Of a DNA stretch of 64,000 nt, positions 21,423 through 41,860 are shown piece after piece. The stretch comes from Synechococcus sp. RS9909 (lineage in GTDB: Bacteria > Cyanobacteriota > Cyanobacteriia > PCC-6307 > Cyanobiaceae), in assembly GCF_014279595.1 (NCBI RefSeq), contig NZ_CP047943.1, forward strand, positions 1,302,001 to 1,366,000, given 5' to 3'. Every line of letters begins with the position of its first letter. Position 1 is the first letter of the stretch. A model generated the notes under the pieces. It was not told the DNA's origin, made no database searches, and saw only the letters and a list, made by a program, of their open reading frames with translations. A program made the position numbers and the translations under genes.

Positions 21423-22049
21423 TCAGGTGTGATCTGGCTGGGAGGTCACCAGCTCGACGACAAGCTTCGCTATGGACGACTTGCAGGACGGTGTCAGGTC
21501 TCCGCCATGCAGGACGTCCTCAAAGAGGATGGTCTGCATCAGGGCGCCGATGAAGATGCGAGCCCTCAGTTCCGGCTGATCCGTGATGACGGCCAGGATC
21601 TGTGTGAGCCGCGTGAGCGCGCGCTGTTGCACTTCGGCCACGAATCCCTTGGCCAGATCAGGGAAACGACCGGATTCGCCGATCACCAGCCTCAGAAAAT
21701 CCAGCATCTCCGGTTGGCGCTCGTTGACCTCCACGATGCGCGCCGCAAGCTGCGCGAGCTGCCGGCGCGCCTGTTTCGGCCCGGGGGGTGCCGGTGAGCT
21801 GGGCCCGAACACGTCTTCCACACGCCGCTGCACCATCCAGCAAGTGAGAGCCCGGAACAGCGACGCCTTGTCGCCGTAGTGGCTGTAGATGGTGGGCTTG
21901 GACACGCCGGCCGTGGCGGCGATCCGGTCCATCGATGCAGCGGCGTAGCCCCGTTGCAGAAATTCCTGGCGGGCCCCCTTCAGGATCGCATCGGCCTTGC
22001 GGGGCGAACGCTGGCGACCCCTTGAATGCCCAGCCGGAGCAGCGTTCAT
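21423..22049 (-). CDS. TetR-family transcriptional regulator
   Basis: A 208-residue regulator from ATG 22049. The N-terminal helix-turn-helix is ILKGARQEFLQRGYAAASMD then AATAGVSKPTIYSHYGDKAS, a textbook TetR segment. The C-terminal helices form the ligand and dimer domain (AefR/AcrR-like). It is divergent from a DevBCA exporter operon, with the palindrome ACTACACGGTGTAGT between them, so it most likely represses that operon and itself until an exporter substrate binds. Confidence 0.93.
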   Translation of the reverse strand: MNAAPAGHSRGRQRSPRKADAILKGARQEFLQRGYAAASMDRIAATAGVSKPTIYSHYGDKASLFRALTCWMVQRRVEDVFGPSSPAPPGPKQARRQLAQLAARIVEVNERQPEMLDFLRLVIGESGRFPDLAKGFVAEVQQRALTRLTQILAVITDQPELRARIFIGALMQTILFEDVLHGGDLTPSCKSSIAKLVVELVTSQPDHT

Positions 22050-22062
22050 CCGTCGCAATTGC

Positions 22063-22077
22063 ACTACACGGTGTAGT
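22063..22077. promoter_or_regulatory. Operator-like palindrome between TetR gene and exporter
   Basis: ACTACAC-G-GTGTAGT is a perfect 7+1+7 inverted repeat in the 57-base divergent intergenic region, the usual site size for a TetR dimer. Confidence 0.7.
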
Positions 22078-22106
22078 TTAAACAGATCCGGTGGACGTGG
22101 TTCCGC

Positions 22107-23222
22107 ATGCTCAAGCTCGAGTGGTCACGGTTGGCTGCCCTGCGCGGGGAACGGCGTCGGCCCTGGCTGGCTGGGATGGCCCTGGCGACATTGGTCGCCG
22201 CCACCGGCGCTGGGCTATGGCACCAGCGTTCTGAGCGCCTGGCCCGCGATCGTGAGCGACAGGAGGCGCTGAGCGCTCCGCTCACCACGGTCACGGCGCT
22301 TGGCCGGATCGAGCCCGTGGGGGAAGTACGCAATGTGGTGCCGCCGGCCGCCGCTGCGGCCGGCGCGCAGGTGCGACTCAGGCGCCTGCTGGTGGAGGAG
22401 GGAGCCTGGGTGGAGGCCGGCCAGTTACTGGCGGAGATGGATTCCCTGCCACGGCTCACCCGGGCTGTGGAGGAGGCTGAAGCCCAGGTGGCGAGTGCAC
22501 AAACCCAGCTGCAGGTGGCGATCGCCAGGCAGCGCAGCCAGCTCGAATCCCAGCGGGCGCGGGTAGCCAGTGCGGAAGAGAAGCTGCGCACCGCTGCCGC
22601 CGAAGAACGGCGCTACCGCCTGATCGTCGAGCAGGGGGCAGCCTCGGTGTCGCTGTATGAGAGCAAGCGACAGGAGCTCGAAGCCGCCAGGGCGCAGCTG
22701 CGGGAGGCCAGAGCGGATTTGCAACGACTGGAGACCTCGGTGACCACGTCCTTCGGACCGATCAGCCTGGAGGAAGCCACGGCCCGCCGGGATCTGGAGG
22801 CGGCTCGCGCCCATCTGCAACGCAGACGGGCCGAACGCAGTGATGCCCTGGTGCGCTCACCGATCCGCGGTCGCGTGCTCAGTGTGTTGACCCGTCCGGG
22901 CGAAGCGGCGGGGGCCGAGGGATTACTGGAAGTCGGCCAGACCGATCGGATGCAGCTCGTGTCGGAGGTGTACCAGAGCGATCGTCAACGGCTCCACGTT
23001 GGGCAGGCGGTGCGCATCACCTCCCCCGCCCTCGCCATGCCCCTGGAAGGGAAGATCACCCGGATCGGCGCGATTGTGCGTCGTCAATCGATGATCAACA
23101 CCGACCCCAGCGCCAATACCGATGCCCGGGTGATCGAGGTACACGCCGAGCTCGATCCGGCGAGTAGCCGCAGAGCCGCCGATCTCTCCAACCTCCAGGT
23201 CACGGCGGTGTTCGGAGCATGA
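22107..23222 (+). CDS. devB: DevB/HlyD-type membrane fusion protein
   Basis: A 371-residue periplasmic adaptor with one N-terminal membrane helix (WLAGMALATLVAATGAGLW). The lipoyl-like half-motifs ALGRIEPVGEV and VRSPIRGRVLSVLTRPGE flank a long coiled-coil hairpin (about residues 120-230, Glu/Ala/Arg-rich). It would link the inner-membrane DevCA pump to an outer-membrane channel. In filamentous relatives DevBCA exports glycolipids; in unicellular strains the substrate is unknown. The last four bases overlap the permease gene. Confidence 0.9.
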   Translation: MLKLEWSRLAALRGERRRPWLAGMALATLVAATGAGLWHQRSERLARDRERQEALSAPLTTVTALGRIEPVGEVRNVVPPAAAAAGAQVRLRRLLVEEGAWVEAGQLLAEMDSLPRLTRAVEEAEAQVASAQTQLQVAIARQRSQLESQRARVASAEEKLRTAAAEERRYRLIVEQGAASVSLYESKRQELEAARAQLREARADLQRLETSVTTSFGPISLEEATARRDLEAARAHLQRRRAERSDALVRSPIRGRVLSVLTRPGEAAGAEGLLEVGQTDRMQLVSEVYQSDRQRLHVGQAVRITSPALAMPLEGKITRIGAIVRRQSMINTDPSANTDARVIEVHAELDPASSRRAADLSNLQVTAVFGA

Positions 23223-24391
23223 CGATCTGGCAGCAGCTGAAACGGCGCACACCGCTGGGCTGGTTGCAGCTCAGACACGATCGAAGCCGGCTTCTGGTGG
23301 CCCTGGCCGGGATTGCGTTTGCCGATGTGCTGATGTTCACACAGTTGGGCTTTCAGGCCTCGATCTACGACAGCAATACACGCTTTCACCGCTCCCTCAA
23401 CGCCGACATCGTGCTGCTCAGCCCGAAGGCGCAGAACCTCCAAAATCTTTCGACATTCCCTCGCCGTCGCCTGTTGCAGGCCCAGGACGTGCCAGGCGTG
23501 ATCGATGCCCATGGGCTTTACGTGAACACCCTCACCTGGAAGAACCCGGATACCCGCCTTGACGCCACGGTGCAACTATTCGGTTTTGATCCAGATGTGC
23601 AGGTGTTCCGGCTGCCGGAGGTGAACCAACAGCAACAGATCCTCAAACAGGTGGATAAGGTGCTCTTCGATCGTGGGTCCCGCGGGCCCTACAAAGGCAC
23701 GATCGCGGCCCTGGCCAAGGGGCAGACACTCACCACCGAATCGGAGCGGCGCACGCTCATCATCCAGGGGCTCTACAGCCTCGGCGCCAGCTTCGGCTCC
23801 GACGGCACGTTGATGGCCAGCGATATCACCTTTCTGCGTCAGTTCCCCAGGCGTGAAGCCGGCAGCCTCAGCCTTGGCCTGGTGCGGCTGCAGCCTTCAG
23901 CGGATCCTGATCTTGTGGCCGAGCGGCTGCGCCACCATCTGCCCAACGACGTGAAGGTGCTCACGCGTGCGGGCTACATCGCCTTTGAACAGGCCTACTG
24001 GCGCCGCGCCTCGCCGGTGGGTGTGATCTTTGGCCTCGGCACGGTGATGGCGTTCGTTGTGGGCGTCGTGATTGTGTATCAGGTGCTCTCCACCGATGTG
24101 GCTTCCCACCTGGCTGAATACGCCACCTTTCGGGCGATGGGTTATCGCACACGCTTCCTGCTCGGTGTGGTGTTTGAGGAGGCCTTGGTGCTTGCCAGTC
24201 TCGGCTTCATCCCTGGTTTTGTGTTGCCGCTGGGCATCTATGCCATGGCTTCCAAAGCCACGTTTTTGCCCATCGCGATGACAGCGGAGCGTGCGATCAA
24301 GGTGTTTGTGCTCACGCTGGTGATGTGTGCGGCCTCGGGAGCGATTGCCACGCGCCGGTTGCAGGCAGCCGATCCGGCGGAGCTGTTCTGA
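23219..24391 (+). CDS. devC: DevC-type ABC permease
   Basis: A 390-residue MacB/FtsX-type permease. The N-terminal helix is about residues 24-44, a large periplasmic domain follows, and three helices lie near the C-terminus (VIFGLGTVMAFVVGVVIVYQ, LVLASLGFIPGFVLPLGIYA, FVLTLVMCAASGAIATRR), ending PAELF as DevC proteins do. It overlaps devB by 4 and devA by 1 base, so all three are one translationally coupled unit. Confidence 0.93.
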   Translation: MTIWQQLKRRTPLGWLQLRHDRSRLLVALAGIAFADVLMFTQLGFQASIYDSNTRFHRSLNADIVLLSPKAQNLQNLSTFPRRRLLQAQDVPGVIDAHGLYVNTLTWKNPDTRLDATVQLFGFDPDVQVFRLPEVNQQQQILKQVDKVLFDRGSRGPYKGTIAALAKGQTLTTESERRTLIIQGLYSLGASFGSDGTLMASDITFLRQFPRREAGSLSLGLVRLQPSADPDLVAERLRHHLPNDVKVLTRAGYIAFEQAYWRRASPVGVIFGLGTVMAFVVGVVIVYQVLSTDVASHLAEYATFRAMGYRTRFLLGVVFEEALVLASLGFIPGFVLPLGIYAMASKATFLPIAMTAERAIKVFVLTLVMCAASGAIATRRLQAADPAELF

Positions 24392-25089
24392 TGGCAGCCT
24401 CGATTCAGATCGATGCACTGCAACACCACTATGGCCGCGGTGCTCTGCGGCGGCATGTGCTGCACGACATTCAGCTGCAGGTGTTGGAGGGTGAGATCGT
24501 GCTGCTCACGGGCCCCTCCGGTTCCGGCAAGACGACGCTGCTGAACCTGATTGGCGGTTTGCGGCAGGGGGAGTGCGGCAGCCTGCGTGTGCTCGGTCGC
24601 GAACTGATCGGCGCTGGCGATCGTCAGCTCAGCGAAGCCCGCCGCGAACATGGCTACATCTTCCAGGCTCACAACTTGCACCGAAGCCTCACGGCGCTTC
24701 AGAACGTGCGGATGGGGTTGGAGGTGCAGGGCACGCTGTCGGCCGCGGAGATGAACCATCGGGCAGCGGTGATGCTCGAGCAGGTTGGGCTGGCGGATCA
24801 GCTGCACCAGTTTCCTGATCAGCTGTCCGGCGGTCAGAAGCAGCGGGTGGCCGTGGCGCGCGCCCTGGTGCATGAGCCACCGCTGGTGCTGGCGGATGAG
24901 CCCACGGCAGCACTCGACAGCCGCTCCGGCCGTGATGTGGTGACGCTGATGCAAGCGCTGGCGCGAGAGCGCCACAGCACGATTCTGCTGGTGACCCACG
25001 ACAACCGCATCCTCGACATCGCCGATCGCGTGATCACGATGGAGGATGGCTACCTGCGCGGGTGGCCAAAGGCTTGCCCAAAGACGTGA
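24391..25089 (+). CDS. devA: DevA-type ABC ATPase
   Basis: A 232-residue ATPase with Walker A GPSGSGKTT, Q-loop IFQAHNLHRSLTA, signature QLSGGQKQRVAVARAL, Walker B LVLADEPTAALD and switch VTHDNRI. It powers the DevBC exporter. The last dozen residues (YLRGWPKACPKT) look foreign: the same DNA in another frame starts the helicase debris at 25062. The natural C-terminus may therefore have been replaced by a junction. Confidence 0.93.
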   Translation: MAASIQIDALQHHYGRGALRRHVLHDIQLQVLEGEIVLLTGPSGSGKTTLLNLIGGLRQGECGSLRVLGRELIGAGDRQLSEARREHGYIFQAHNLHRSLTALQNVRMGLEVQGTLSAAEMNHRAAVMLEQVGLADQLHQFPDQLSGGQKQRVAVARALVHEPPLVLADEPTAALDSRSGRDVVTLMQALARERHSTILLVTHDNRILDIADRVITMEDGYLRGWPKACPKT

Positions 25090-25407: not shown

Positions 25408-26037
25408 TCAGCCCATCGGACTTTGCGCCGCCAGCGCAGCCTGAACTTCAGGGATGTAAACGGCGTACATGCCGCGCAGATCACCGACCTTGAAGTTGAA
25501 GGCCCGGTCGTTGGGGTACTTCTCCTGAATGAAGGCTGGCCGGCTGTCTCGGCTGCCATGACACGCCAGGCAGCTCGCCTGGACGTCGATCCGCCGGTAG
25601 TAGTTCACGCCCGCACCCTGTTCAGCGCTGGCTGGCTCCCAGAGCCCATTGATTTCCGGGTGCTTGGCGAAGAGATCAATCACCTCGGTCTCCTGAGAGC
25701 CGATGGGGGCATGATCGGGATTGCGATATTTGCTCGCCACCTGACGGACGGTCCAGCCGTTGTCCTGGCCAATCGCCATGGCTCTCTTGCCTACGGGCAT
25801 GCACACTTCACGCATCGTGTCCATGGTGGGCTCTTCCGTGCTGCCCTCCAGGGACGAGGCAAGGGAGATGCGCATGCGATCCAGCGCTTCCATCTGATCC
25901 ACGGCTTTCGCCAAGACAGCCGGGTCGACGGGAGCAGTCCCCTGGTTGGCCAGGGCGATGGCAGGCTGAACGGTGAAGAGCAGCCCTGCGATCAAAGCAG
26001 CGAGTAGCTGCGAGAGGGCAGACGTGAGGTTGTTCAT
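25408..26037 (-). CDS. Exported single-heme Tll0287-like protein (DUF3365)
   Basis: A 209-residue protein with signal peptide LLAALIAGLLFTVQPAIALA. The mature domain has the DUF3365/Tll0287 pattern: VCMPVGKRAM, TVRQVASKYRNPDHAP, and a c-type heme site SCLACHGSR, then YPNDRAFNFKVGDLRGMYAV. Proteins of this type bind one c-heme in a PAS-like fold and may sense redox state or small ligands, or carry electrons, in the periplasm or lumen. It lies downstream of the D1' gene on the same strand and starts by TGATG overlap with a short frame between the two, so cotranscription with psbA is plausible. Confidence 0.85.
   Translation of the reverse strand: MNNLTSALSQLLAALIAGLLFTVQPAIALANQGTAPVDPAVLAKAVDQMEALDRMRISLASSLEGSTEEPTMDTMREVCMPVGKRAMAIGQDNGWTVRQVASKYRNPDHAPIGSQETEVIDLFAKHPEINGLWEPASAEQGAGVNYYRRIDVQASCLACHGSRDSRPAFIQEKYPNDRAFNFKVGDLRGMYAVYIPEVQAALAAQSPMG
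25460..25507. repeat. 48-bp exact repeat, copy 2 (inside the heme-protein gene)
   Basis: This is the source-like copy of the repeat at 19681-19728. Here it codes in frame for the segment RAFNFKVGDLRGMYAV. Confidence 0.9.
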
Positions 26038-26153: not shown

Positions 26154-27233
26154 CTAACCGATTGCAGGTGCTGTGAGCGCCACGGGTTGACTGTCGACCG
26201 CTGCCAGATCGAGCGGGAAGTTATGCACGTTGCGTTCATGCATCGCTTCGATGCCAAGACCGCCACGGTTGAGCATATCGGCCCAGGTGCTGATTACCCG
26301 ACCCTGGTTGTCGAGGATCGACTGATTGAAGTTGAAGCCATTGACGTTGAAGGAGAAGCTCACCACCGCCATGGAGGCGAACCAGATGCCGATCACCGGC
26401 CAGGCCGCCAGGAAGAAGTGAAGGCTGCGGCTGTTGTTGAAGGAGGCGTATTGGAAGATCAGGCGACCGAAGTAACCGTGGGCAGCCACGATGTTGTAGG
26501 TCTCTTCTTCCTGGCCGAATTTGTAGCCCCGGTTCTGGGATTCCGCTTCGGTGGTTTCACGCACCAGGGAGGAGGTCACCAGGGAGCCGTGCATGGCGGA
26601 GAAGAGGGCTCCACCAAAGACGCCGGCCACACCCACCATGTGGAAGGGGTGCATGAGCACGTTGTGTTCCGCCTGGAGCACCAGCATGAAATTGAAGGTG
26701 CCGGAAATACCGAGGGGCAGGGGATCGGAGAAGGAGCCCTGGCCGATGGCATACACGAGCAACACGGCGGTAGCTGCAGCCACAGGGGCGCTGTAGGCAA
26801 CGGCGATCCAGGGGCGCATGCCAAGGCGATAGGAGAGTTCCCACTCGCGCCCCATGTAGGCGTAGATGCCGATCAGGAAGTGGAAGATGATCAGCTGATA
26901 GGGGCCGCCGTTGTAGAGCCACTCATCGAGGCTGGAGGCTTCCCAGATCGGATAGAGGTGCAGTCCGATCGCGTTGGAGGTGGGCACCACCGCTGCGGTG
27001 ATGATGTTGTTGCCATAGAGCAACGAACCGGTCACGGGCTCGCGCACGCCGTCGATATCAACGGGGGGTGCGGCGATGAAGGCGAGGATGAAGCAGATGG
27101 CTGCCGTGAGCAGGCAGGGAATCATCAGCACACCGAACCAGCCGATGTAGAGGCGGTTGTCGGTGCTGGTGATCCAGTTCTTGAAGGCATCCCAGGAGCC
27201 AACGCGCCTGCGGGACAGGGTTGTTGAAGACAT
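26154..27233 (-). CDS. psbA: Photosystem II D1 protein, D1' (low-oxygen) isoform
   Basis: A 359-residue D1. Five helices and all oxygen-evolving ligands are present: Asp170, Glu189, His332, Glu333, His337, Asp342, Ala344, plus Tyr161, His190, His198, His215 and His272. Numbering has no gaps against standard D1. At the positions that mark the micro-oxic D1' group it has Ala80 (for Gly), Leu158 (for Phe) and Ala286 (for Thr). It also has Glu130 (high-light type), Ala144 (for Cys), Ala162 (for Pro) and Pro171-Leu172 after Asp170. Because the Mn ligands are intact it is a working D1 variant, not a rogue D1. Low oxygen is known to induce such genes elsewhere. Confidence 0.95.
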
Positions 27234-28929: not shown

Positions 28930-29994
28930 ATGCCCTGCGCTCTCGACGCCATGACAGCCACCACCAGCGGAGCACCGGCGGCTCCCCATCTTCGTGAAGA
29001 CCTGCTCACACCTCGCTTCTACACCACGGAGATCGCCAAGGCCGCCCGCACGGATCTCGAGGAGCAGCGCTCCTCCTTCGAGGCGATGCTCAGTGAAATG
29101 GAGGCCGACTACAACCGCGATCACTTCGATCGGCGTGCCCCGCTGGATCGCCTGCGCGACCTCAATCCCGAGCAGAAGACGGCGTATGAAAGCTATCTGG
29201 TGCGCTCCTGCGTGTCTGAATTCTCCGGCTTTCTCCTGTTCAAGGAGCTCTCCCGCCAGCTGCGCGACGCCAAGCGCCCGGAGCTCAGCCGTCTGTTCAA
29301 CCTGATGGCCCGCGATGAGGCTCGCCACGCCGGCTTCCTGAACCGGGCCCTGGTGGCGGAAGGGATCGAAATCGACCTGCCCTCCCTCAGTGGCAAGCGA
29401 CCGATCACCTGGTTCCCGCTCAACTGGGTGCTCTATTCGGTGTATCTCTCCGAGAAGATCGGCTACTGGCGCTACATCCTGATCGACCGACATCTCAAGG
29501 CCCATACGGAGAACGCCTTCGCGCCACTGTTTGATTTCTTCGAGCCCTGGTGTCAGGACGAAAACCGCCATGGCGACATTTTCAACATGCTGATCCGTTG
29601 TTGGCCTGGCCTCAACAGCGGCCTGCGCGGCTCCCTGCTCAGCCGCTTCTTTCTCTGGAGCGTGTTCCTGACCCACAGCCTCACGGTGTGTGAGCGCGGT
29701 GACTTCTACCGTCTGCTCGGCATGGATCCCGACCGCTTCGATGCGGAGGTGATGCGCCAAACCAATCGCACGGCCCGGCGCGCCTTCCCCCGGGTGTTTG
29801 ATCTGGAGAACTCCCAGTTCCTGGCCCTGCGCGATCAACTGGTCGACACCTTCCGGCGCCTGAACAACAGCAAGCGGGATCAGCCAGGACTGGCCGGTGC
29901 CTGGACTCGCCTCGGCCTCAGGCTGCGCTTTGGTCAGTTGTTGCTGCGCCAGTTTCTGCAGCCGATGCAGGCCAGCAACGAGGTGGCGGCATGA
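28930..29994 (+). CDS. acsF: Mg-protoporphyrin IX monomethyl ester oxidative cyclase (second, low-O2 type)
   Basis: A 354-residue diiron enzyme that forms the fifth ring of chlorophyll using O2. Diiron motifs are present: VSEFSGFLLFKEL, NLMARDEARHAG and WCQDENRHGDIF. The conserved N-terminal LLTPRFYTTEIAKAART is also there. Cyanobacteria often have two copies, and the one next to ho2 and hemN (ChlAII) serves micro-oxic cells; the same company is seen here. ATG 28951 (MTATTSGAPA) is an alternative start. It overlaps the glycosyltransferase gene by 4 bases. Confidence 0.93.
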   Translation: MPCALDAMTATTSGAPAAPHLREDLLTPRFYTTEIAKAARTDLEEQRSSFEAMLSEMEADYNRDHFDRRAPLDRLRDLNPEQKTAYESYLVRSCVSEFSGFLLFKELSRQLRDAKRPELSRLFNLMARDEARHAGFLNRALVAEGIEIDLPSLSGKRPITWFPLNWVLYSVYLSEKIGYWRYILIDRHLKAHTENAFAPLFDFFEPWCQDENRHGDIFNMLIRCWPGLNSGLRGSLLSRFFLWSVFLTHSLTVCERGDFYRLLGMDPDRFDAEVMRQTNRTARRAFPRVFDLENSQFLALRDQLVDTFRRLNNSKRDQPGLAGAWTRLGLRLRFGQLLLRQFLQPMQASNEVAA

Positions 29995-31806: not shown

Positions 31807-32487
31807 ATGACCGCCAGCCACTCGATTTCCGATCACGCCAAGCCCGCCGATGCCGACATGCGTCGCGGCTTTGGCCCCAGGGTGCGCAAGCTGCACAGCC
31901 GAATCGGCAAAGCGCATCACAAGGCCGAAGGCATGACCTTCTCCAGGGCCCTTCTCGCCGGTGATGCGTCGCCTCGCCAGCTGGCGGCCCTGATGCGGGC
32001 GCTGGCGCCGGCCTATGCCTTCCTTGAGCAGGAAGGGCCCGATCTGGCCTTCTCGCTCGGATCCGATTCGATTCCCTGGCACGATCTGGCCCGCACCACC
32101 GCCCTGTGCCACGACCTTGCCATCCTCGCCAGTGTTACCGCCACGCCGGCATCGGCGGCGGCGGCGATCTGGATGGAGCAATTGCAGCAGTTGGCCCGCC
32201 AGGCCCCCCATCGGCTGATGGCCCATGTGTACGTGCGCTACGGCGGCGATCTCTCCGGCGGGCAGCAATTGGCGGCCCAGGCCAACGCCATCCTGCACAA
32301 GGCCGGCCTTCCCGCCCTCAGCTTCTGGTCGTTCTCGGCACCGATCACCGAGCTCAAGCTGGCGCTCCATGACGGCTTCGAAGAAATGGAACTGTCCGCA
32401 GCCGAGGAGGAGGAACTGCTGGATGAGGCGGTGCAGGCCTTCCACGCCACCCAGCGCCTGCTGGCGGAACTGGCCCAGCTCGACTGA
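31807..32487 (+). CDS. ho2: Heme oxygenase (HO2-like)
   Basis: A 226-residue enzyme that opens heme to biliverdin, releasing CO and iron, the first step to phycobilins. The proximal histidine lies in KAHHKAEGMTF, and the distal helix AHVYVRYGGDLSGGQQLA carries the flexible GG hinge. The N-terminal extension is slightly longer than in HO1. Its position directly before hemN and after acsF fits the low-oxygen-induced second isozyme. The hemN start follows after 41 bases. Confidence 0.93.
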   Translation: MTASHSISDHAKPADADMRRGFGPRVRKLHSRIGKAHHKAEGMTFSRALLAGDASPRQLAALMRALAPAYAFLEQEGPDLAFSLGSDSIPWHDLARTTALCHDLAILASVTATPASAAAAIWMEQLQQLARQAPHRLMAHVYVRYGGDLSGGQQLAAQANAILHKAGLPALSFWSFSAPITELKLALHDGFEEMELSAAEEEELLDEAVQAFHATQRLLAELAQLD

Positions 32488-32528: not shown

Positions 32529-33890
32529 ATGACAGCAACGCCCCAGACCAGCCGTGCCCTCGCCTTGCTGCTCAAACACGATCGGCCGGTGCCCCGCTAC
32601 ACCAGCTACCCCACCGCCGCTGCGTTTTGCGCCGATGTTGGCGACCTCCAGTTGCGGCAACAGCTGGCGGACGTCACAGACGCGCCCCTGTCGCTGTATG
32701 TCCATGTGCCCTTCTGTCGCCATGCCTGCTGGTACTGCGGCTGCAACCGGATCACCACCCAGCTCGGTTCCAAGGTGGTGGAGCCCTATCTCGCCTCGTT
32801 GGCACAGGAACTGGAGCTGATCACCGAGGCCATGCCCCAACGGCGGCGACTGTCGCAGATGCATTGGGGCGGCGGCACCCCGAACTATCTCAATCGCGAG
32901 GAAACGGCCCAGCTCTGGGAGTTGATTCGTCGCCATTTCGATTTCGACGACGACCTGGAGGCCTCGATTGAGGTCAACCCGGAAGGTCTCAGCCGCGATG
33001 CGGCCTGCCAGCTGCGGGAGCTGGGCTTCAACCGCATCAGTTTCGGCATCCAGGATGCGGATCCGGATGTGCAGAACGCCGTGAACCGGGTGGTGCCGGA
33101 AACCCAGTTGCGCTGCGCGATGCTCTGGCTACGGGAAGCGGGGTTCGAGAGTGTGAATGTGGATCTGATCTGTGGTCTGCCCCTCCAGACCCCGGAGCGC
33201 TTCCATCGCACGCTGGAGCTGGTGCAGGAGCTGCGTCCGGATCGGATCTCGCTCTTTTCCTTTGCCTACCTGCCCGAGCAGTTGCCGATGCAGCGGAAGA
33301 TTCAGGCGGAAGATCTCCCCAGCCAGCGGCAACGGCTGAGCATGCTCGAGCACGCCAATCAGCTTCTCTGCGCCAACGGCTACGACGCGATCGGCATGGA
33401 CCATTACGCGCTGCATGACGATGGTCTGGCGGAGGCCGCCCGGGAGGGCCGGCTGCATCGCAACTTTCAGGGCTACACCACTGGCGGTGAGCTGGATCTG
33501 CTCGGGATCGGGCCGAGCGCGATCAGCCAGTTCCGCCATCTGTTCAGCCAGAACGAACGGGATCTCAAGGCCTATGGCGCCGCTCTGGCCCAGGGGCAGT
33601 TGCCCGTGGAACGGGGTCTGGTGGTGACCGATCCGCAGGTGTTGCAGCGCCGAGAGCTGATCCGCGAGGTGATGTGTCAGTTTGAAGTGCAGCTGCCGCC
33701 AACCGGTTTTGAGCAGGAACTGGCTGATTTCAAGCGGTTGGCGTGCGATGGCTTGGTATGTCTGAGCCAGGGTGCCGATGGAAGCATCACCGTGCGCGTG
33801 ACCAAGGATGGCCGCTGGTTGATCCGCACGATCGCTGCCGTGTTGGATCCGAATCAACGGCACAAGGCCAGCGGCTCGCGGTTGATCTGA
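32529..33890 (+). CDS. hemN: Oxygen-independent coproporphyrinogen III oxidase
   Basis: A 453-residue radical SAM enzyme. PVPRYTSYPTA at the N-terminus is the true-HemN mark that separates it from HemW. The [4Fe-4S] site is VPFCRHACWYCGC, followed by HWGGGTPNYLN and the SAM-binding strand EVNPEGLS. It decarboxylates coproporphyrinogen III without O2, bypassing HemF in micro-oxic cells. The next gene begins 13 bases after its stop. Confidence 0.95.
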   Translation: MTATPQTSRALALLLKHDRPVPRYTSYPTAAAFCADVGDLQLRQQLADVTDAPLSLYVHVPFCRHACWYCGCNRITTQLGSKVVEPYLASLAQELELITEAMPQRRRLSQMHWGGGTPNYLNREETAQLWELIRRHFDFDDDLEASIEVNPEGLSRDAACQLRELGFNRISFGIQDADPDVQNAVNRVVPETQLRCAMLWLREAGFESVNVDLICGLPLQTPERFHRTLELVQELRPDRISLFSFAYLPEQLPMQRKIQAEDLPSQRQRLSMLEHANQLLCANGYDAIGMDHYALHDDGLAEAAREGRLHRNFQGYTTGGELDLLGIGPSAISQFRHLFSQNERDLKAYGAALAQGQLPVERGLVVTDPQVLQRRELIREVMCQFEVQLPPTGFEQELADFKRLACDGLVCLSQGADGSITVRVTKDGRWLIRTIAAVLDPNQRHKASGSRLI

Positions 33891-33903
33891 GCAGGCCGCG
33901 GTG

Positions 33904-36048
33904 ATGCCGCCTGATCAGCTTGCAACCACCACCCTGCAGCGGCTGGCTCCCTACCTGGTGGCGCGGCCGCGACGGGGCGTGGTGGGCACCAGTCGCCAGG
34001 CCAAAGAGTTGCGGGAGGCGATCCGCAGCGCTGCCGCCAACCAGGAGCGCCAGGCTGTGTTGCTCTTCGGCGAACCGGGCCTGGAGAAAGACAACCTGGC
34101 GGCGCTGATTCATTTCGGATCTGCGGATCGCCATCGCCTGATGCTGCGGATCGATGGCGCGCGGATGCGTTCGGATGGGGCGGACCTCTTCGGGTCCACG
34201 TCCCACGCGGAAGAGCCGCCCCTGTTGCAGCTGGTGGCTGATGGCTCTCTGCTGATCGACAACCTGGATCAGGTGCCGGAGCCGGCCCGGCAGGCCTTGC
34301 TCGATCTGGCCCGCACCGGTGCCTGGCGTCCGGTGGGCTCCACCAATCCGCCGCATCGGTTTCAGGGACGCCTCTTCTTCACGGCCGAAACCAGCCAGAC
34401 GCCTTTTGATGCTTGCTGCAGCGTGATTCGGGTGCCGCCCCTGCGGGTGCGGCGTCAGGATCTGGGCGAATGGTTGCGCTATGGCGTGCGCCAGCGCAGC
34501 CGCAGTCTCGGCTGGGAGCCGGCGCCGGAGGTGCCGATGGCGGTGGTGAAGCAGCTGCAGACCCATGAGTTCCCCAACAACCTGCGTGAACTGGATGCGC
34601 TGATCGATCGAGCGATCCAGCAGGTGCGCCATCAGGAGTCCCATCAAGCCCACCAGAACCGAGCGGGGCGGCCACCGAAACAGTTGCCGGAGGAGGTGTT
34701 CTGGACGTCACCGCGGCAGGAGAACGCCCGCTTCGATCTCTGGCGCTGGAAACCGCCACTGCGCGATTGGATGCGATCTCCCCGGCTCTGGAACGGCCTG
34801 CTCTTCGGCCTGGTGAGCTGGGTGTTTGTGCTGGTGAATCTCTGGCTCTGGCTGGGCCCCCAGGATCGGGCCCACAACGGCGCCCTGAATCTGTTCTGGG
34901 CCTGGTGGTGGCCCTTGATCCTGATCGGCTTTCCGCTGGTGGGTCGGCTCTGGTGTTCCTTCTGCCCGTTCATGGTGTGGGGGACGATCACGCAGCGCCT
35001 GGCGCAAAGGCTGGGCTGGGAGCCGCTGGCCTGGCCCCGAGGTGATCACGACCGCTGGGCCTCGCGTTGGCTCAGCGCTGGTTTCGCGTTGATTCTGATC
35101 TGGGAAGCGGTGTGGGACCTTCCCAACACGGCCTGGTTGAGCAGTTGCCTGCTGCTGTTGATCACCGCTGGTGCCGTGATCGGCTCCCTGCGCTTAGAAA
35201 AGCGGTTCTGGTGCCGCTACCTCTGCCCGATCGGTGGCATGAACGGCCTGTTCGCCAAGCTTTCAATCCTGGAGCTGCGCGCCCAGGCCGGCATCTGCAG
35301 CGGCAATTGCAGCAGTTACGCCTGCTTCAAAGGCGGTCCGGCGGAAGGGGAGGGTCTGGCCACGGAGGGTTGCCCGCTCGGCACCCATCCCGCCCACCTG
35401 CGCGACAACCGCAACTGCGTGCTTTGCCTCAGCTGCGCCCAGGCCTGTCCGCATCGCTCGGTGCGTCTGGCAATCCGGCCGCCGGCGGCGGATCTGCAAC
35501 GGGAAATGGTGACTCCAGCGGGAGAACCGGCCCTGCTGCTGATCCTGCTGGGAAGCGTCGCCCTGGGCCATTGGCAGCGCCTGTGGCCGTGGAGTGGTCT
35601 CGCTCCAGCCAGCCTCAGCGAAGGACCCTTGCTACCGCGTCTTGCTGTGGCATCGGCGACGTTGGCCCTGCCCGCCCTGTTGTTTTGCCTCGCCCGGCCG
35701 TTCGTGAGTGGGATCCGGCTTGAACGCTGCCTGTACGGCTTGCTGCCGTTGGTCTGGGCCCTGCTGCTGGCGCACCATCTGCCGCTGGGGATGACGGAAG
35801 CGGGACTGTTGCTGCCCGTGAGCCTGTCGCCCTGGCCTGGCGTTGCGGCCCTGCCCTTGCCCCACTGGCAGGCTCAGCCCGCGGTGATCGGCTTCTGCCA
35901 GAGCGGTGTGGTCGCCCTCGGCGCGATCTGGAGCCTGGTGATCCTGCGCCGCATGTTCAGCAGCCGCCTGAGCGCCTGGACCGGTGCCTCCACCCTGATG
36001 CTCACTCTGGCGATCTGTGGCCGCTGGCTGGTGAATGGATCGGGGTAG
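33904..36048 (+). CDS. Degenerate sigma-54-activator AAA+ domain fused to a NosR/NapH-like membrane polyferredoxin
   Basis: A 714-residue two-part protein. Residues about 25-240 follow a bacterial enhancer-binding AAA+ domain (LLFGEPGLEKDNLAALIH, DLFGSTSH, LVADGSLLIDNLDQVPEPAR, PPLRVRRQDLGEWL, EFPNNLRELDALIDRAI). Walker A has lost its GxxGxGK form, Walker B has Asn for Glu, and no GAFTGA loop is left, so ATPase activity is unlikely. From about 300 a NosR/NapH-type part has several membrane helices, cysteine turns WCSFCPF and WCRYLCPIGGMN, CSGNCSSYACFKG, and a ferredoxin site NCVLCLSCAQACP. It would move electrons across or along the membrane. It probably belongs to the ho2-hemN transcript. 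Confidence 0.8.
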   Translation: MPPDQLATTTLQRLAPYLVARPRRGVVGTSRQAKELREAIRSAAANQERQAVLLFGEPGLEKDNLAALIHFGSADRHRLMLRIDGARMRSDGADLFGSTSHAEEPPLLQLVADGSLLIDNLDQVPEPARQALLDLARTGAWRPVGSTNPPHRFQGRLFFTAETSQTPFDACCSVIRVPPLRVRRQDLGEWLRYGVRQRSRSLGWEPAPEVPMAVVKQLQTHEFPNNLRELDALIDRAIQQVRHQESHQAHQNRAGRPPKQLPEEVFWTSPRQENARFDLWRWKPPLRDWMRSPRLWNGLLFGLVSWVFVLVNLWLWLGPQDRAHNGALNLFWAWWWPLILIGFPLVGRLWCSFCPFMVWGTITQRLAQRLGWEPLAWPRGDHDRWASRWLSAGFALILIWEAVWDLPNTAWLSSCLLLLITAGAVIGSLRLEKRFWCRYLCPIGGMNGLFAKLSILELRAQAGICSGNCSSYACFKGGPAEGEGLATEGCPLGTHPAHLRDNRNCVLCLSCAQACPHRSVRLAIRPPAADLQREMVTPAGEPALLLILLGSVALGHWQRLWPWSGLAPASLSEGPLLPRLAVASATLALPALLFCLARPFVSGIRLERCLYGLLPLVWALLLAHHLPLGMTEAGLLLPVSLSPWPGVAALPLPHWQAQPAVIGFCQSGVVALGAIWSLVILRRMFSSRLSAWTGASTLMLTLAICGRWLVNGSG

Positions 36049-36454: not shown

Positions 36455-37177
36455 TCATTGGTTCGCCAGCAGCTCCTTGAGGCGCCGGGCTGCAGTGGGC
36501 CCGATCGCCAGTGGCTGCTCAAAGCCATGAAACAAGAGCAGCGTGAGCGAACGGGACACGCGCTTCACGGTGCGCAGCGCCGCCAGGCTGATGATCGTGG
36601 AACGATCAAGACGTGGAAATTGATCCTCCGGCAACACGCCATCCCACTCGCCAAGCAGGCGGTTCAACACCAACGGATCACGATCCAGCAGCTGGAGATG
36701 TGAGCTTTTGCCCATGGCTACCACCCACAGCACCGCATCCAAGCGGATCTGATCGCGCCAGCCTGAGCGATCAAGCCAGAAGCCTTCGGTGTCACTGAAG
36801 CCGGGATCGTTAGCATCGGCGTCGCTCCTCGCCGCAAGCAATCGCTCCAAGCAGAGGCTGAGCCGCTCTGGACGAATCGGCTTGAGCAGGTAATCGCGCA
36901 CACCGGCATCAAAGGCCTGGATGGCGAAATCGCGGTAGGCCGTGGTGATCACCACCTGGCAGGTTTCGGGAAGCATGGATAGAAGCGCTGATCCGTGGAC
37001 GCTTCCGAGGCGAAGATCCAGAAACACAAGATCTGGTGGCGACGCCTGCACCGCAGCAATAGCCTGCTCCAGGCAATGTGCCTGGGCCTGCACTCTCACC
37101 TGGGGATGCTGCTGCAATAAGGCCATGAGATGCCTCATGGCAGCGGGCTCATCCTCCACCAACAAGGCCTCAAGCAT
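36455..37177 (-). CDS. LytTR-family response regulator
   Basis: A 240-residue regulator. The receiver domain has the acidic pair near residue 9, phospho-acceptor Asp54 in VFLDLRLG and the Lys in DYLLKPI. The C-terminal half is a LytTR DNA-binding domain (SSHLQLLDRDPLVLNRLL, FPRLDRSTIISLAALRTV). Its start overlaps the end of the kinase gene by 8 bases, so they are a matched pair. LytTR regulators often control surface or secreted factors; the 1134-residue protein next door is an obvious target. Confidence 0.92.
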   Translation of the reverse strand: MLEALLVEDEPAAMRHLMALLQQHPQVRVQAQAHCLEQAIAAVQASPPDLVFLDLRLGSVHGSALLSMLPETCQVVITTAYRDFAIQAFDAGVRDYLLKPIRPERLSLCLERLLAARSDADANDPGFSDTEGFWLDRSGWRDQIRLDAVLWVVAMGKSSHLQLLDRDPLVLNRLLGEWDGVLPEDQFPRLDRSTIISLAALRTVKRVSRSLTLLLFHGFEQPLAIGPTAARRLKELLANQ

Positions 37178-38267
37178 GGCTGAGCTGTCCCTGCCTGACG
37201 GGTAACTCCACCGTCACATAGGTGAGATCATCGTTGTTGCTGACGCGCAATGTGGCAGCCGACCCATAGAACAAATCCAGTTGCTGTCGGATCGCCTCCA
37301 AGCCGTAGCCTCCCCCATGGGATCCCTGCCAGCAACCTGTATTCGCCACAGACAAGATCAGGCGCTGGCCCTCACAGCGACAGCGCACCTGAATCCGTAG
37401 CAAGCCATCGAAACCAGGAGAGCCATGCTTGAACGCATTTTCCACCAGGGGTTGCAGCAGAAACCGAGGCACCCGGTGCTGCAGCACGTCCTTGTCAACA
37501 AGGAATTCTGAGCGAAACCGTTCAGCAAAGCGAAGCTCCTGAACACCGATGTAGCCCTCGAGAGCATCCAGTTGCAACTGCAAAGGCTCCAGCAACTCAG
37601 GCTTTGCGATCGTGTAGCGAAGATAATCTGCCAGGGCGTTTGATCCATCCTGCACCGCATCGGGATCATGGCGACATGAGGCGATGGCGGTGAGACTATT
37701 CAACAAAAAATGGGGCTGAAATGCTGAGGTGAGAAAGCGCAACTGGGCTTGAACCAACGCCTTTTCCTGCTGGCCTCGCCTGACTTCGCTGTGCTGCAGG
37801 TCACGTGCATTCAGAAACAGAAGGAAAAATCCAGCCCAAACCAGAAGACGTAGAAGTAACCCGCCATACGTAATCCAGGTTTTCGCGGCGAATTGCAAAT
37901 CCGTAGAGGCATATCGATCAGCGCTGATCGGCAGCAGACGCATCAAGCCATGCGCAACGCCAATCAGGAGGCTGACGAACAGAACCATGCTGACGAGCAA
38001 GACCACGGTTCGTCGCCTGCTCCGCAGGACGCTCCAGCCTGGATTGCACAGGAACCGTCGTTGCATCCAAGCGCAGAACAGGAACCCAGGAATCGCCCAA
38101 AACAACATCAATGCAACGCCGGATTCGGGCTGGATCGGCACATTCGCCCAACCCCAGGTGGTGGCAAAGGCATCAAGACCGATGACGAGCCAGAAGAGGG
38201 CGTTGAATAACAACAGACGATGGGTTCGAATCCAGCCGTTCCATTGGCGCCACCTCATCGTCAACAT
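37170..38267 (-). CDS. LytS/YehU-type sensor histidine kinase
   Basis: A 365-residue kinase. Four hydrophobic segments fill the first 160 residues. The phospho-acceptor region FLTSAFQPHFLLNSLTAIAS (His in QPHF) is His_kinase family type. The ATPase domain has PLVENAFKHG (N box), SVANTG and GGGYGLEAIRQQL (G boxes). It has no recognisable periplasmic ligand domain, so it probably senses a membrane or turgor-like signal. It is divergent from the large surface-protein gene. Confidence 0.92.
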   Translation of the reverse strand: MLTMRWRQWNGWIRTHRLLLFNALFWLVIGLDAFATTWGWANVPIQPESGVALMLFWAIPGFLFCAWMQRRFLCNPGWSVLRSRRRTVVLLVSMVLFVSLLIGVAHGLMRLLPISADRYASTDLQFAAKTWITYGGLLLRLLVWAGFFLLFLNARDLQHSEVRRGQQEKALVQAQLRFLTSAFQPHFLLNSLTAIASCRHDPDAVQDGSNALADYLRYTIAKPELLEPLQLQLDALEGYIGVQELRFAERFRSEFLVDKDVLQHRVPRFLLQPLVENAFKHGSPGFDGLLRIQVRCRCEGQRLILSVANTGCWQGSHGGGYGLEAIRQQLDLFYGSAATLRVSNNDDLTYVTVELPVRQGQLSHA

Positions 38268-38455: not shown

Positions 38456-41400
38456 ATGACCAACACAGCAGCCCTGTCAACGTTGTGCGTCGCCCAGAAG
38501 GCTGGAACTCCAACTGGTGTGCTGCTGGTGGCCGATGGCAGCTGCGCCAAGATCCGCGAGCTCCTGGCGGAAGCGCTGGTGCCTGTGCTCTGGCTGGACG
38601 GCACTCAGGATCCGCTGCAGATCGTGACCGCCGCGTTGGCAGAACGGCGGCGGCAGGGCCAGCCGGTGCAGACGCTGCACTGGGTGAGCCATGGGCGGCC
38701 GGGAGTGCTGCAGGTGGGCGCAACGTGCGTTGATCGAAATGCCCTGCTGGTGGCAAGCAAGCAACTGATCGAATGGCAGGTGGATCAACTTGCGTTCTGG
38801 GCTTGCGATTACGGAGTCGACAAGTCTGTCGTGGGCCTTTGGGAGGAAGTTGTAGGTGCGTCTGTTTACTCATCAGGGGGCACATTGGGCCTCGACACTG
38901 ACGGCCAAAAACACTGGACTCTCGATTCGAAACGGACCAACAAAACAATCATTTGGCCACGGCATTTCGGCGACACGAACACATGGAAGTACCAACTAGG
39001 GATTGTGTCTTACGCGACTTTTGAGGAAGGACCTTCTGAAGACAGTGAGCCATTATCAAATAGTGAGCCTATTGCAGGTGTTGGCCATGCAAGTATGTTT
39101 ACGTCCTTGCCAACTGGCGTTCTCGACTCCATTGATAATCTTAACTATGAAAACAATAACGATTTTTCATTCTTAGATGAAAAAATACTCGCAGATTTTG
39201 TCTATATTTCGCTTCCAGAATCACTGCCAAGTGCTGAACAAACCAGCAATCTAAAAGAATTTGTTCAGTCCGGAGGAACACTGCTTATCAATGGGGAGAT
39301 GTCTAGTAGCAGTTGGGCCGATATCAACAAAAATTTTTCTCAAATACTTGAAGATCTTGGATCTTCAATTTCGATAAGGGAATCACCAATAAGCGTGAAA
39401 GATGATAATTTATTTGCAACAAAAGAAACTGATGAATCACTAATAGAAATTGGTAACTTTGATATTACATCGGGATTGCAAAGTGTAAAAACTGGAACTT
39501 TTGGTGTCCTTGATATCGACAATGAATCCGCTGAAGCGATTCTAGTTACTAGCAACTCAGAAGCTAATATCGTGATGGCTAGTGAGTCCATTGGCAGCGG
39601 CAATGTGATCGCATTTGCCGACATCAATATCTATGATAAAAACTCACCTGACAATATTAATCTAATCAGCAATATTATCATCCAGTCGAAACAAAATCTA
39701 GCCAACGCAAATTCTGTACCGGTGAACACTGTTCCCGGGGCTCAGAGCGCCACTGAAGATACCGCTCTCTCCATCACTGGCATCAGCGTAAGTGATGCGG
39801 ATGGCAACCTCGCTACCACCCAGCTCAGCGTCACTAACGGAACGCTCACCGTTGACATCAACGATGGTGCCACGATCAGCAGCGGCAGTAACAACTCCGC
39901 CGATCTCACTCTCAGTGGCAACCAAACGCAGATCAATGCAGCTCTGGCAACACTCTCATACACACCAATAACCAATTACAACGGTAGCGATACCCTCACC
40001 GTTGTCAGCACCGATTCTGGTGACGCGCCTCTAAGCGACACCGATACGGTGACCATCACCGTCAATGCCGTCGATGATTCGGCCGTCGTTTCCGGCGATA
40101 TCACCGGTTCAGGCGATGAGGACACCACCACCGCAATCACAGGCACACTCAAGGCCACGGATGTCGACGGACTCACCGATGGCACTGTTTTCTCCATTGC
40201 CGATGGCAACGGCCCGGCCAATGGCACCGCAACGATTGATGAGGCCTCCGGTGCCTGGTCCTATGTGCCGAATGCCAATTTCAATGGCACCGATCAATTC
40301 ACCGTCACCATCACCGACGATCTGGGCGGCACCACACCTCAAACGGTGACCATTACCGTCAATGCCGTCGATGATTCCGCCGTCGTCTCTGAAGGCACCA
40401 CAGACTCCGGATCCGCCCCCAGTACAGTAGCCGACGACTCCACCCAAGTCTCTGTCGCATCAAACGGCGGCACTCAAACTCCAGCTGCTCAAATTGTAAC
40501 AACATCAGAAGTTGCCAATGGCAGTAGCTTGAGCAACTTACGTGACCTTGAAATCGCCCTCAGCAATAAAGCTATCGACTTCGAGGTTGAGCTTGACGAT
40601 GATACTTCAACCGCAACCGCCAATATCCCCCTTGCTGTCCTTGAGGATGACCTCACGCTCACATCAGACGATGGAGAGCGTGATTCCTCCATCGCACCGA
40701 TTTACTACGCCATTAATGACCAGGGTGCTCTCACACCCCTTTCCTACGACCCCCTCGTCAATGCCGGTGCGCGCTTCTACGACACCGATGGTGATGGCAT
40801 CGCTGATTTCCTCTCACTGACTCTGGTTGATGGCGGATTCGGCGACAAGGATGGTGTCAAAAATGGAGTGATCGATGATCCCTCTGCACTGGGCACCGTC
40901 ACCCTCGATCCCGTGCTCACCGCGCTCGACAACGGCTTTCTTCAGGTGGCTGATGCCACCAATGCTGCGCCCGCTGCCCTCGCCCTGCAGGCGTCCCTCA
41001 CCAGTCGCGCCAATGCCGTGACGGAAATCGGTTACGTGATCCTCAACGCGGGCGAGGAGGCCTCCACCGTCAGCGACATCACCGCCCTCCAGGAGCGCGC
41101 TCACCTCCTCTTCTCCGCCCTGGAAAACAACGACGTCACCCTCGCCGAGGCAATGACGTTCAACAGCGAGTTCTTGCTGCGCAACGGGCAGAGCATCCGC
41201 TTGTTCGCGGTGACCAACGGCACTCTCGCCGATCTCACCAGCCTCGATGATTCACGCGTCTCCTTCCTTGATGGCAGCGTCGATGCCACCACTGGTGCGG
41301 CCTCCTTCTCCAGCGCCAGCGGCATCGGCTTGGATCTGACCCTGCTCAACAGCGATCAGAACCTCAGCGCTCTGATCGCCCAGGAGCAACACTCGGTACC

Positions 41401-41860
41401 CCTGCTCGATTTCACCGCCTTCACCAACGACGAAACCATCACCGGCACGATTGTTCAGGCCCGGGAAGCCGCATACGACGCCGTCACCGGCTTCTATCGC
41501 GTGCTCGACACTTCCGGCAGTGTGCGTGCCGCCGATGGCTCCCTGCTCACGCCCGGGGATGCCGGCTATGCCGCCGCCGCTCTGCTGGAGGCCAATCGCA
41601 TCAGCGCTCTTGGCGATCTCTCCATCGCTGATGGTGAATCCTCGTCCACCGCGTTCAGCCTTCAGGACTCCTCCTACATCGCACCCTTTGCCCAGGTGGA
41701 AGGCAACACCTTCTTTGCCTTCGCTGATGCCAACACCGATGGCCTCTCCCACTTCCGCTCCCTCGGCACCAACCTCTTTGGCCTGGAAGACCAACTCGGT
41801 GGCGGTGATCTCGATTACGACGATCACATCGTCGGTTTCAACGTTGAGTCGATCTCCTAA
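38456..41860 (+). CDS. Large surface or secreted protein: DUF4347, cadherin-like repeats, DUF4114
   Basis: 1134 residues. Residues about 20-160 are a DUF4347 domain (VLLVADGS, TLHWVSHGRPGVLQVG, LAFWACDYGVD). Residues 190-415 form a compact AT-rich-coded domain with strands like ADFVYISLPESLPSAEQTSN and GGTLLINGE, possibly a glutamine-amidotransferase-like fold (inference). About 420-640 are two cadherin/VCBS-type repeats ending VTITVNAVDDS. The C-terminus is DUF4114-like (FAFADANTDGLSHFRSLGTN, LGGGDLDYDDHIVGF), a calcium-binding type. It has no N-terminal signal peptide, so type I secretion or a similar route is likely. The segment 39000-39720 is much more AT-rich than the rest, so the gene is mosaic. 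Confidence 0.85.
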   Translation: MTNTAALSTLCVAQKAGTPTGVLLVADGSCAKIRELLAEALVPVLWLDGTQDPLQIVTAALAERRRQGQPVQTLHWVSHGRPGVLQVGATCVDRNALLVASKQLIEWQVDQLAFWACDYGVDKSVVGLWEEVVGASVYSSGGTLGLDTDGQKHWTLDSKRTNKTIIWPRHFGDTNTWKYQLGIVSYATFEEGPSEDSEPLSNSEPIAGVGHASMFTSLPTGVLDSIDNLNYENNNDFSFLDEKILADFVYISLPESLPSAEQTSNLKEFVQSGGTLLINGEMSSSSWADINKNFSQILEDLGSSISIRESPISVKDDNLFATKETDESLIEIGNFDITSGLQSVKTGTFGVLDIDNESAEAILVTSNSEANIVMASESIGSGNVIAFADINIYDKNSPDNINLISNIIIQSKQNLANANSVPVNTVPGAQSATEDTALSITGISVSDADGNLATTQLSVTNGTLTVDINDGATISSGSNNSADLTLSGNQTQINAALATLSYTPITNYNGSDTLTVVSTDSGDAPLSDTDTVTITVNAVDDSAVVSGDITGSGDEDTTTAITGTLKATDVDGLTDGTVFSIADGNGPANGTATIDEASGAWSYVPNANFNGTDQFTVTITDDLGGTTPQTVTITVNAVDDSAVVSEGTTDSGSAPSTVADDSTQVSVASNGGTQTPAAQIVTTSEVANGSSLSNLRDLEIALSNKAIDFEVELDDDTSTATANIPLAVLEDDLTLTSDDGERDSSIAPIYYAINDQGALTPLSYDPLVNAGARFYDTDGDGIADFLSLTLVDGGFGDKDGVKNGVIDDPSALGTVTLDPVLTALDNGFLQVADATNAAPAALALQASLTSRANAVTEIGYVILNAGEEASTVSDITALQERAHLLFSALENNDVTLAEAMTFNSEFLLRNGQSIRLFAVTNGTLADLTSLDDSRVSFLDGSVDATTGAASFSSASGIGLDLTLLNSDQNLSALIAQEQHSVPLLDFTAFTNDETITGTIVQAREAAYDAVTGFYRVLDTSGSVRAADGSLLTPGDAGYAAAALLEANRISALGDLSIADGESSSTAFSLQDSSYIAPFAQVEGNTFFAFADANTDGLSHFRSLGTNLFGLEDQLGGGDLDYDDHIVGFNVESIS

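Follow-up and report, generated by a model that had tools for sequence, protein, structure and literature searches.

The closest described counterparts of the protein analyzed here are the enhancer-binding proteins NtrC, PspF and FleQ, with their AAA+ domain, and the NapH/MauN/NosR/CcoG-type polyferredoxins, with their Fer4_5 domain, CxxxCP-type motifs and long helices. NapH supports Nap and CcoG supports the cbb3 oxidase, while VpsR, TyrR and the NtrC of R. capsulatus are soluble DNA-binding regulators in which the enhancer-binding-protein fold has been reused without sigma-54. The gene neighborhood also has a described counterpart, the cyanobacterial chlAII-ho2-hemN cluster, which unites AcsF, heme oxygenase and HemN and is reported, together with psbA1, as a set of low-O2 genes under ChlR control (in the available parts of PMC4500134).

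The window, i.e., the whole 64,000-nt stretch of the Synechococcus sp. RS9909 genome analyzed in this work, contains an intact ORF at 33904–36048 with a further in-frame GTG at 33901. To judge from sequence and predicted fold, its 714-aa product is an NtrC/PspF-type AAA+ fold fused to a NapH-like membrane polyferredoxin. We found the gene in single copy in its 2.6-Mb single-contig genome, where no other gene matches Fer4_5 at E ≤ 0.01, and the nearest named relatives of the protein belong to Synechococcus, Vulcanococcus and Cyanobium. The head shares with NtrC, PspF and FleQ the AAA+ fold with lid, the Walker A lysine and the order of elements, but it differs from them in the absence of the Walker B Glu, of GAFTGA and of the arginine-finger motif, in that no DNA-binding domain was found, and in that no sigma-54 was found in its genome. 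VpsR was among the structural matches of the head; in contrast to VpsR, TyrR and R. capsulatus NtrC, however, this head is joined to a membrane redox module. The membrane part, in turn, resembles the NapH/MauN/NosR/CcoG-type proteins but scores far below the NapH cut-off, has extra C-terminal helices and a cytoplasmic AAA+ head, and yielded no FMN domain in searches with domain models. No description of such a fusion was found in text searches of an open-access library, including the available parts of PMC5295598, PMC6776005, PMC13421787, PMC4500134, PMC4582080 and PMC5776472, and public records label members, for example, "nitrogen assimilation regulatory protein" or "cyclic nucleotide-binding domain-containing protein". 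A fusion that is common in cyanobacteria and, as far as could be seen, uncharacterized is of real interest.

Domain architecture of the fusion protein

The features of the protein are as follows (all on the + strand).

33904–36048, +: whole gene, 714 aa, from the ATG at 33904 (possible GTG start at 33901)
33973–34641, +: AAA+ core and lid of NtrC/PspF type, residues 24–246, catalytic motifs lost (Pfam, PDB sequence matches, predicted fold)
34069–34092, +: altered Walker A, GEPGLEKD, residues 56–63, with Lys62 invariant in the family (family alignment)
34246–34263, +: altered Walker B, SLLIDN, residues 115–120, with Asn in place of the catalytic Glu (family alignment)
34729–36045, +: membrane polyferredoxin module, residues 276–714, NapH-like, with a standalone homologue on a Deinococcus plasmid
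34954–34968, +: CxxCP motif with Cys351 and Cys354, among the 12 Cys invariant in 133/133 sequences
35212–35229, +: CxxxCP motif with Cys437 and Cys441, Cys invariant in 133/133
35296–35451, +: ferredoxin-like segment with Cys465, 469, 474, 490, 505, 508, 511 and 515 (family alignment)
35494–36045, +: C-terminal helices with invariant Glu541, Tyr611, Glu632 and Gln666 (family alignment)

The Pfam model PF00158 matched the AAA+ part above its cut-off (E = 6e-8), but this model is unspecific, matching all 14 control genomes and five places in the window's own genome, of which ORF 33904–36048 is the best. The lid model PF25601 scored below its curated cut-off in the window protein (20.7 versus 27 bits) and matched at E up to 0.001 in all 60 members scanned. 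Since PF00158 alone is unspecific, the AAA+ assignment rests on the PDB sequence matches, 33 of 36 of which are NtrC-type activators, and on the predicted fold. The latter was obtained with AlphaFold2 from 67 family members, with pLDDT mostly above 90 in the head, and the top structural matches of the predicted head (VIA-align) were FleQ (6jdi) and NtrC1 (1ny5), with Z of 22 and rmsd of 2.4 over ~228 residues. Both lines of evidence bear out the first-pass annotation, made from the sequence alone, in that the N terminus keeps the overall order of a sigma-54 activator ATPase and is predicted to fold as an AAA+ domain with the lid of enhancer-binding proteins.

To describe the motifs across the family, we used 133 sequences, among them that of the window protein; the 150 matching loci gave 142 frames of more than 600 aa with closed ends, of which 133 were left after duplicates (by the last 500 residues) had been dropped. 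The same annotation had listed Walker A, the Walker B Glu and GAFTGA as lost. The last two losses hold throughout, with the Walker B Glu missing in 133/133 sequences and GAFTGA present in 0/133, but Walker A is altered rather than gone, as its lysine is kept in every sequence; the glycine just before this lysine is Glu in 114 of them and Gly in 17. The Asp preceding the Walker B Glu is kept in the window protein and in 83/133 sequences overall. A loss additional to that list is that of FRxDL, which we take to be the arginine-finger motif of enhancer-binding proteins and which none of the 133 sequences contains; the segment for the expected arginine-finger helix is 25–26 residues long in 131/133, i.e., ~12 residues shorter than in the NifA alignment. 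Besides Lys62, the invariant residues of the head are His70, Ser73, Asp186, Asn226 and Glu229, and a replacement motif close to EPGLEKDN recurs across families. A divergent clade (5 of the 133 sequences) has a normal P-loop, GTGKT or GSGKT, without the Walker B Glu, the arginine-finger motif or GAFTGA, so that no homologue in the set combines all of the intact ATPase motifs.

The sigma-54 model PF04552 matched none of the 40 genomes searched, including the window's own, and matched 4 of the 14 control genomes, in agreement with the earlier statement that cyanobacteria lack sigma-54. No HTH or Fis model was among the nine Pfam families listed for the window protein at E up to 0.1, and its Pfam matches included no other output domain. 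Because five defining features of a sigma-54 activator (the Walker B Asp-Glu, GAFTGA, the arginine finger, a DNA-binding domain and sigma-54 in the genome) were looked for and not found, the window protein is not such an activator, although it has the NtrC-type AAA+ fold with lid. The head looks catalytically dead throughout the family, as judged by its motifs, and would neither hydrolyze ATP in the normal way nor contact sigma-54; since Lys62 is invariant, it may still bind something nucleotide-like.

The membrane module belongs to the broad NapH/NosR-like kind of polyferredoxins, given a Fer4_5 match above the cut-off and CxxxCP-type motifs whose cysteines are invariant in 133/133 sequences, though it is not a NapH by the curated cut-off of the NapH/MauN model TIGR02163 (E = 8e-10; 38.7 versus 213 bits). 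The first-pass description of a membrane ferredoxin part thus stands, while its "CxxxCP motifs" need correction to one CxxCP, one CxxxCP and a ferredoxin motif C-x2-C-x2-C-x3-CP, to which Cys465, 469, 474 and 490 are added. The twelve invariant cysteines would suit three [4Fe-4S] clusters. Glu541, Tyr611, Glu632 and Gln666 of the C-terminal helices were invariant in all 67 sequences compared (67/67) and may belong to a site for quinone or protons. Many long helices, typical of membrane proteins, were predicted in residues 276–714, and this predicted part had no PDB relative above background, which is not evidence of a new fold.

A standalone homologue, WP_027463891.1, encoded on the Deinococcus ficus plasmid pDFI1, aligned along the membrane module (hhalign probability of 100 over 394 columns) and has neither an AAA+ nor a cNMP-type head, which indicates that the module can serve without a head. 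Haloarchaeal plasmids hold relatives of this standalone protein at ~24–25% identity. Directly before the Deinococcus gene lies an ORF (L153, 8027–8950, +) for a histidine-rich, exported-looking protein with no Pfam match, which hints at metal handling.

Selection, family spread and the cNMP-type domain

The first-pass annotation had called the head a "remnant". We found this too strong, because the head is under purifying selection: dN/dS of the AAA part was 0.12–0.33, below neutrality in 7/7 pairs, all of which come from the window's family and partly overlap, some sharing a member. In the same seven pairs, dN/dS of the membrane/Fe-S part was 0.06–0.12, and the mean column entropy was 0.65 in the Fe-S part compared with 1.65 in the AAA core. 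Of the whole protein, the membrane/Fe-S part is thus under the strongest constraint.

A survey of 386 genomes drawn from the phylum revealed 110 with a match. Of these, 104 are among the 186 Cyanobacteriia genomes, one of them (G284) matching as a C-terminal piece only, and the six outside Cyanobacteriia match the polyferredoxin part only. More than half of the sampled Cyanobacteriia therefore keep the protein, and the fusion is widespread in cyanobacteria, not a local oddity, often with a third, cNMP-type domain. Specifically, 36 of the 60 members scanned with Pfam have an extra N-terminal domain of the cNMP-binding type, which accounts for the greater length of the majority of full-length relatives from other families (~720–950 residues, many near 850). 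The window's lineage, a single starred clade of 24 rows in the tree, lacks this domain, and the pattern of its presence and absence requires at least five changes (both scored by length).

The window protein lacks the cNMP-binding domain expected of a protein regulated by cyclic nucleotides. Nor was the domain found upstream in the window's own gene or in the 12 named loci of the lineage with a far-upstream first start, and a relative's domain matched nothing in the window's own genome in a search that had no positive control. Where the domain does occur, the position of the phosphate-binding Glu, as placed from alignments and what is known of the cassette, is in most cases occupied by another residue (of 38 sequences, 30 have Leu, 4 Tyr and 2 Trp), and that region has no conserved arginine. 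Given this replacement, the domain looks unable to bind a cyclic nucleotide and would be a pseudo-sensor.

Two genomes of the same family have the gene split into two overlapping frames, possibly by a frameshift (G257:C1:2174882–2176850 and G342:C8:7149–9181), and a second gene copy, in G116:C175, contains three stops.

Gene neighborhood in the window and in relatives

Upstream of the gene on the same strand are AcsF, a glycosyltransferase, an aldehyde oxygenase, a heme oxygenase and hemN, and the opposite strand near these genes encodes a pentapeptide protein, psbA and a Tll0287-like heme protein. The main neighbors are listed below.

25408–26037, −: Tll0287-like heme protein (domain match to PF11845), next to the D1'-like psbA
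26154–27233, −: psbA with Ala286, Ala80 and Mn-ligand motifs present (model match and alignment)
28930–29994, +: AcsF, Mg-protoporphyrin monomethyl ester cyclase; the genome has a second AcsF match
31807–32487, +: heme oxygenase, HO2-like by context (domain match)
32529–33890, +: hemN, O2-independent coproporphyrinogen oxidase (TIGR00538 above cut-off), ending 10 bp before the GTG

We take the Ala286 and Ala80 of psbA, in both numbering and residues, to be those of a low-O2 D1'. The stretch upstream of the gene is read as a low-O2 tetrapyrrole island, and the 10-bp distance from hemN makes co-transcription with the 714-aa gene likely. A Tll0287 protein has been reported with PsbA2-photosystem II (title of a reference in PMC4582080). 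In the available parts of PMC4500134, the fusion gene is absent from the chlAII-ho2-hemN clusters. ChlR control was considered for the window and not supported, since the exact motif (as given in the available parts of PMC13421787) does not occur in the window with either spacing and matches with one mismatch are at chance level.

Among 80 named relatives' loci, an AcsF2 relative (73–84% identity) was found in six, most of which also have heme oxygenase, ADO or HemN alongside, and a seventh locus has ADO only; the gene lies on different sides of the island in several arrangements. The remaining 73 show no island gene in the available DNA, though only 48 of the 80 span 5 kb on both sides. The loci with island genes group together on the tree, with three changes at the fewest, two of them forced by starred branches, so that they represent few independent events. 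Within the window's family, a second AcsF occurs in 7/20 genomes with the gene and 0/37 without it, these being related and not independent genomes. A family-wide specificity for low O2 was rejected, as a second AcsF occurs outside the window's family in 57/84 genomes with the gene compared with 31/45 without it. Two genomes of the window's family (G141, C36; G264, C1) have their single AcsF match ~2 kb from the gene in opposite orientation, which the copy count missed; the match in G141 reads one TAG.

We also explored whether main-clade loci share other neighbors, taking the two closest ORFs (80 aa or longer) on either side (n = 124, from a simple ORF caller, so that some are spurious) and excluding 20 neighbors from five divergent-clade loci; an earlier clustering of neighbors had suffered from long spurious ORFs where loci are GC-rich. 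No Pfam family recurred at E up to 1e-6 in more than four of the 124, which led us to reject a conserved main-clade operon. The survey of fusions in cyanobacterial low-O2 clusters that had been proposed at the outset thus places them mostly elsewhere. Since a second AcsF is independent of the gene outside the window's family and main-clade neighbors are not conserved, the low-O2 link may be local.

A link to genomic context is clearer for the divergent clade than for the main clade. In 6 of 11 divergent-clade loci, cysK is next downstream on the same strand, at a gap of 5–164 bp in five and, in the sixth, of 534 bp that include a small ORF; in comparison, cysK occurs anywhere in the stretch in 2/33 main-clade loci. 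Similarly, psbA is in the stretch in 4/11 divergent-clade but 1/33 main-clade loci. Single divergent-clade loci also have cydB and nifH, and petC, rhodanese, DsrE or Tll0287-like genes occur on two divergent-clade plasmids. The neighbors in the window and in several divergent-clade loci belong to low-O2 or sulfur-related photosynthesis, whose redox inputs are still being mapped.

The psbA in the stretch of the divergent-clade gene on the Pseudanabaena galeata plasmid pPg_03 (L152, 18365–19438) lacks several Mn-cluster ligands, unlike the window's psbA, and we assume from the ligand positions that it encodes a D1 of the rogue or sentinel type. The same Pseudanabaena plasmid stretch also contains a relative of the window's Tll0287-like protein at 55% identity. 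Elsewhere in the window, a LytT-type response regulator and a LytS-like histidine kinase form a pair downstream of and convergent with the gene (36455–38267, −), followed by a 1,134-residue ORF (38456–41860, +) with repeated segments that look cadherin/VCBS-like by eye, and a TetR-type regulator upstream of the island is divergent from a DevBCA-like ABC exporter (HlyD, FtsX, ABC; 21423–25089).

Functional interpretation

We tentatively favor, at a probability of roughly 0.4, a membrane relay that exchanges electrons with quinone and carries a pseudo-regulatory head for docking, used at low O2 in the window. The C-terminal module would hold up to three [4Fe-4S] clusters in the membrane and carry electrons between the quinones of the membrane and a partner in the cytoplasm. 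The head would keep its enhancer-binding AAA+ shape without hydrolyzing ATP or contacting sigma-54, and may serve for docking and gating, as a platform to which the soluble partner binds or through which subunits are joined. As the first-pass annotation proposed, the redox centers may control the head. The window gene, presumably co-transcribed with the low-O2 tetrapyrrole genes, would work when oxygen is scarce. We prefer a relay with a docking or gating head because the membrane module is the conserved engine of the protein and exists headless elsewhere. The twelve invariant cysteines, the AAA+ fold kept despite its lost motifs, the altered cNMP-type domain of relatives and the gene contexts also speak for it, whereas the lack of conserved main-clade neighbors, the independence from a second AcsF outside the window's family, the missing ChlR motif and the invariance of Lys62 speak against it. 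The constraint on the membrane module and its headless homologue argue against the main rival, a pure membrane redox sensor whose clusters read the quinone or ferredoxin pool while the head signals to a regulator, electron delivery being no part of its job; nor was a DNA-binding or other output domain found through which it would act. The sensor has in its favor that the head is made of signaling-type domains (the enhancer-binding type of AAA+ and, in 36/60 members, the cNMP type) and is under purifying selection, that the gene keeps company with condition-specific photosynthesis genes in the window, as do some divergent-clade genes, and that NosR and RdxB were once called regulators, but on balance we regard it as somewhat doubtful.

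The invariance of Lys62, together with that of His70, Ser73, Asp186, Asn226 and Glu229, and the full P-loop of the divergent clade would fit a relay in which ATP or ADP, bound by the head at Lys62 but not hydrolyzed, switches the redox module. Such nucleotide gating seems unlikely, as the P-loop Gly is Glu in 114/133 sequences and the second Walker B acid is gone in all, and Lys62 may be structural. The position of the gene directly behind hemN, and the same island in 6 or 7 of the 80 named relatives' loci in several arrangements, would suit a support protein, by analogy with NapH and CcoG, that delivers electrons to AcsF2, heme oxygenase or HemN or matures one of them; with 73/80 loci lacking any island gene, few independent island events, and gene presence independent of a second AcsF outside the window's family, we consider this improbable. 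The erosion of the catalytic motifs in 133/133 sequences might suggest, finally, an accidental fusion whose head is now decaying as a passenger, but this is largely refuted for the window's family by dN/dS, with purifying selection in 7/7 pairs, and the EPGLEKDN-like motif common to families and the confident fold prediction leave it hardly credible.

The occurrence of two pseudo-nucleotide-binding domains, the cNMP type and the enhancer-binding AAA+, both without their usual catalytic or ligand residues, raises a broader idea, which is speculative and on present evidence rather unlikely: these proteins may be cyanobacterial membrane redox receptors in which both domains, reused, form a scaffold that reads the redox state of a three-cluster membrane polyferredoxin and adjusts photosynthesis and pigment production when oxygen is low or sulfide is present. 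Because none of the 40 cyanobacterial genomes searched showed the regulatory system from which the AAA+ domain stems, the fusion may be a case of a transcription motor that lost its chemistry but was retained as a scaffold. The Synechococcus elongatus control genome has a Fer4_5 match (a model match, not necessarily above the cut-off or of this family), and given this match a tractable strain may carry a relative.
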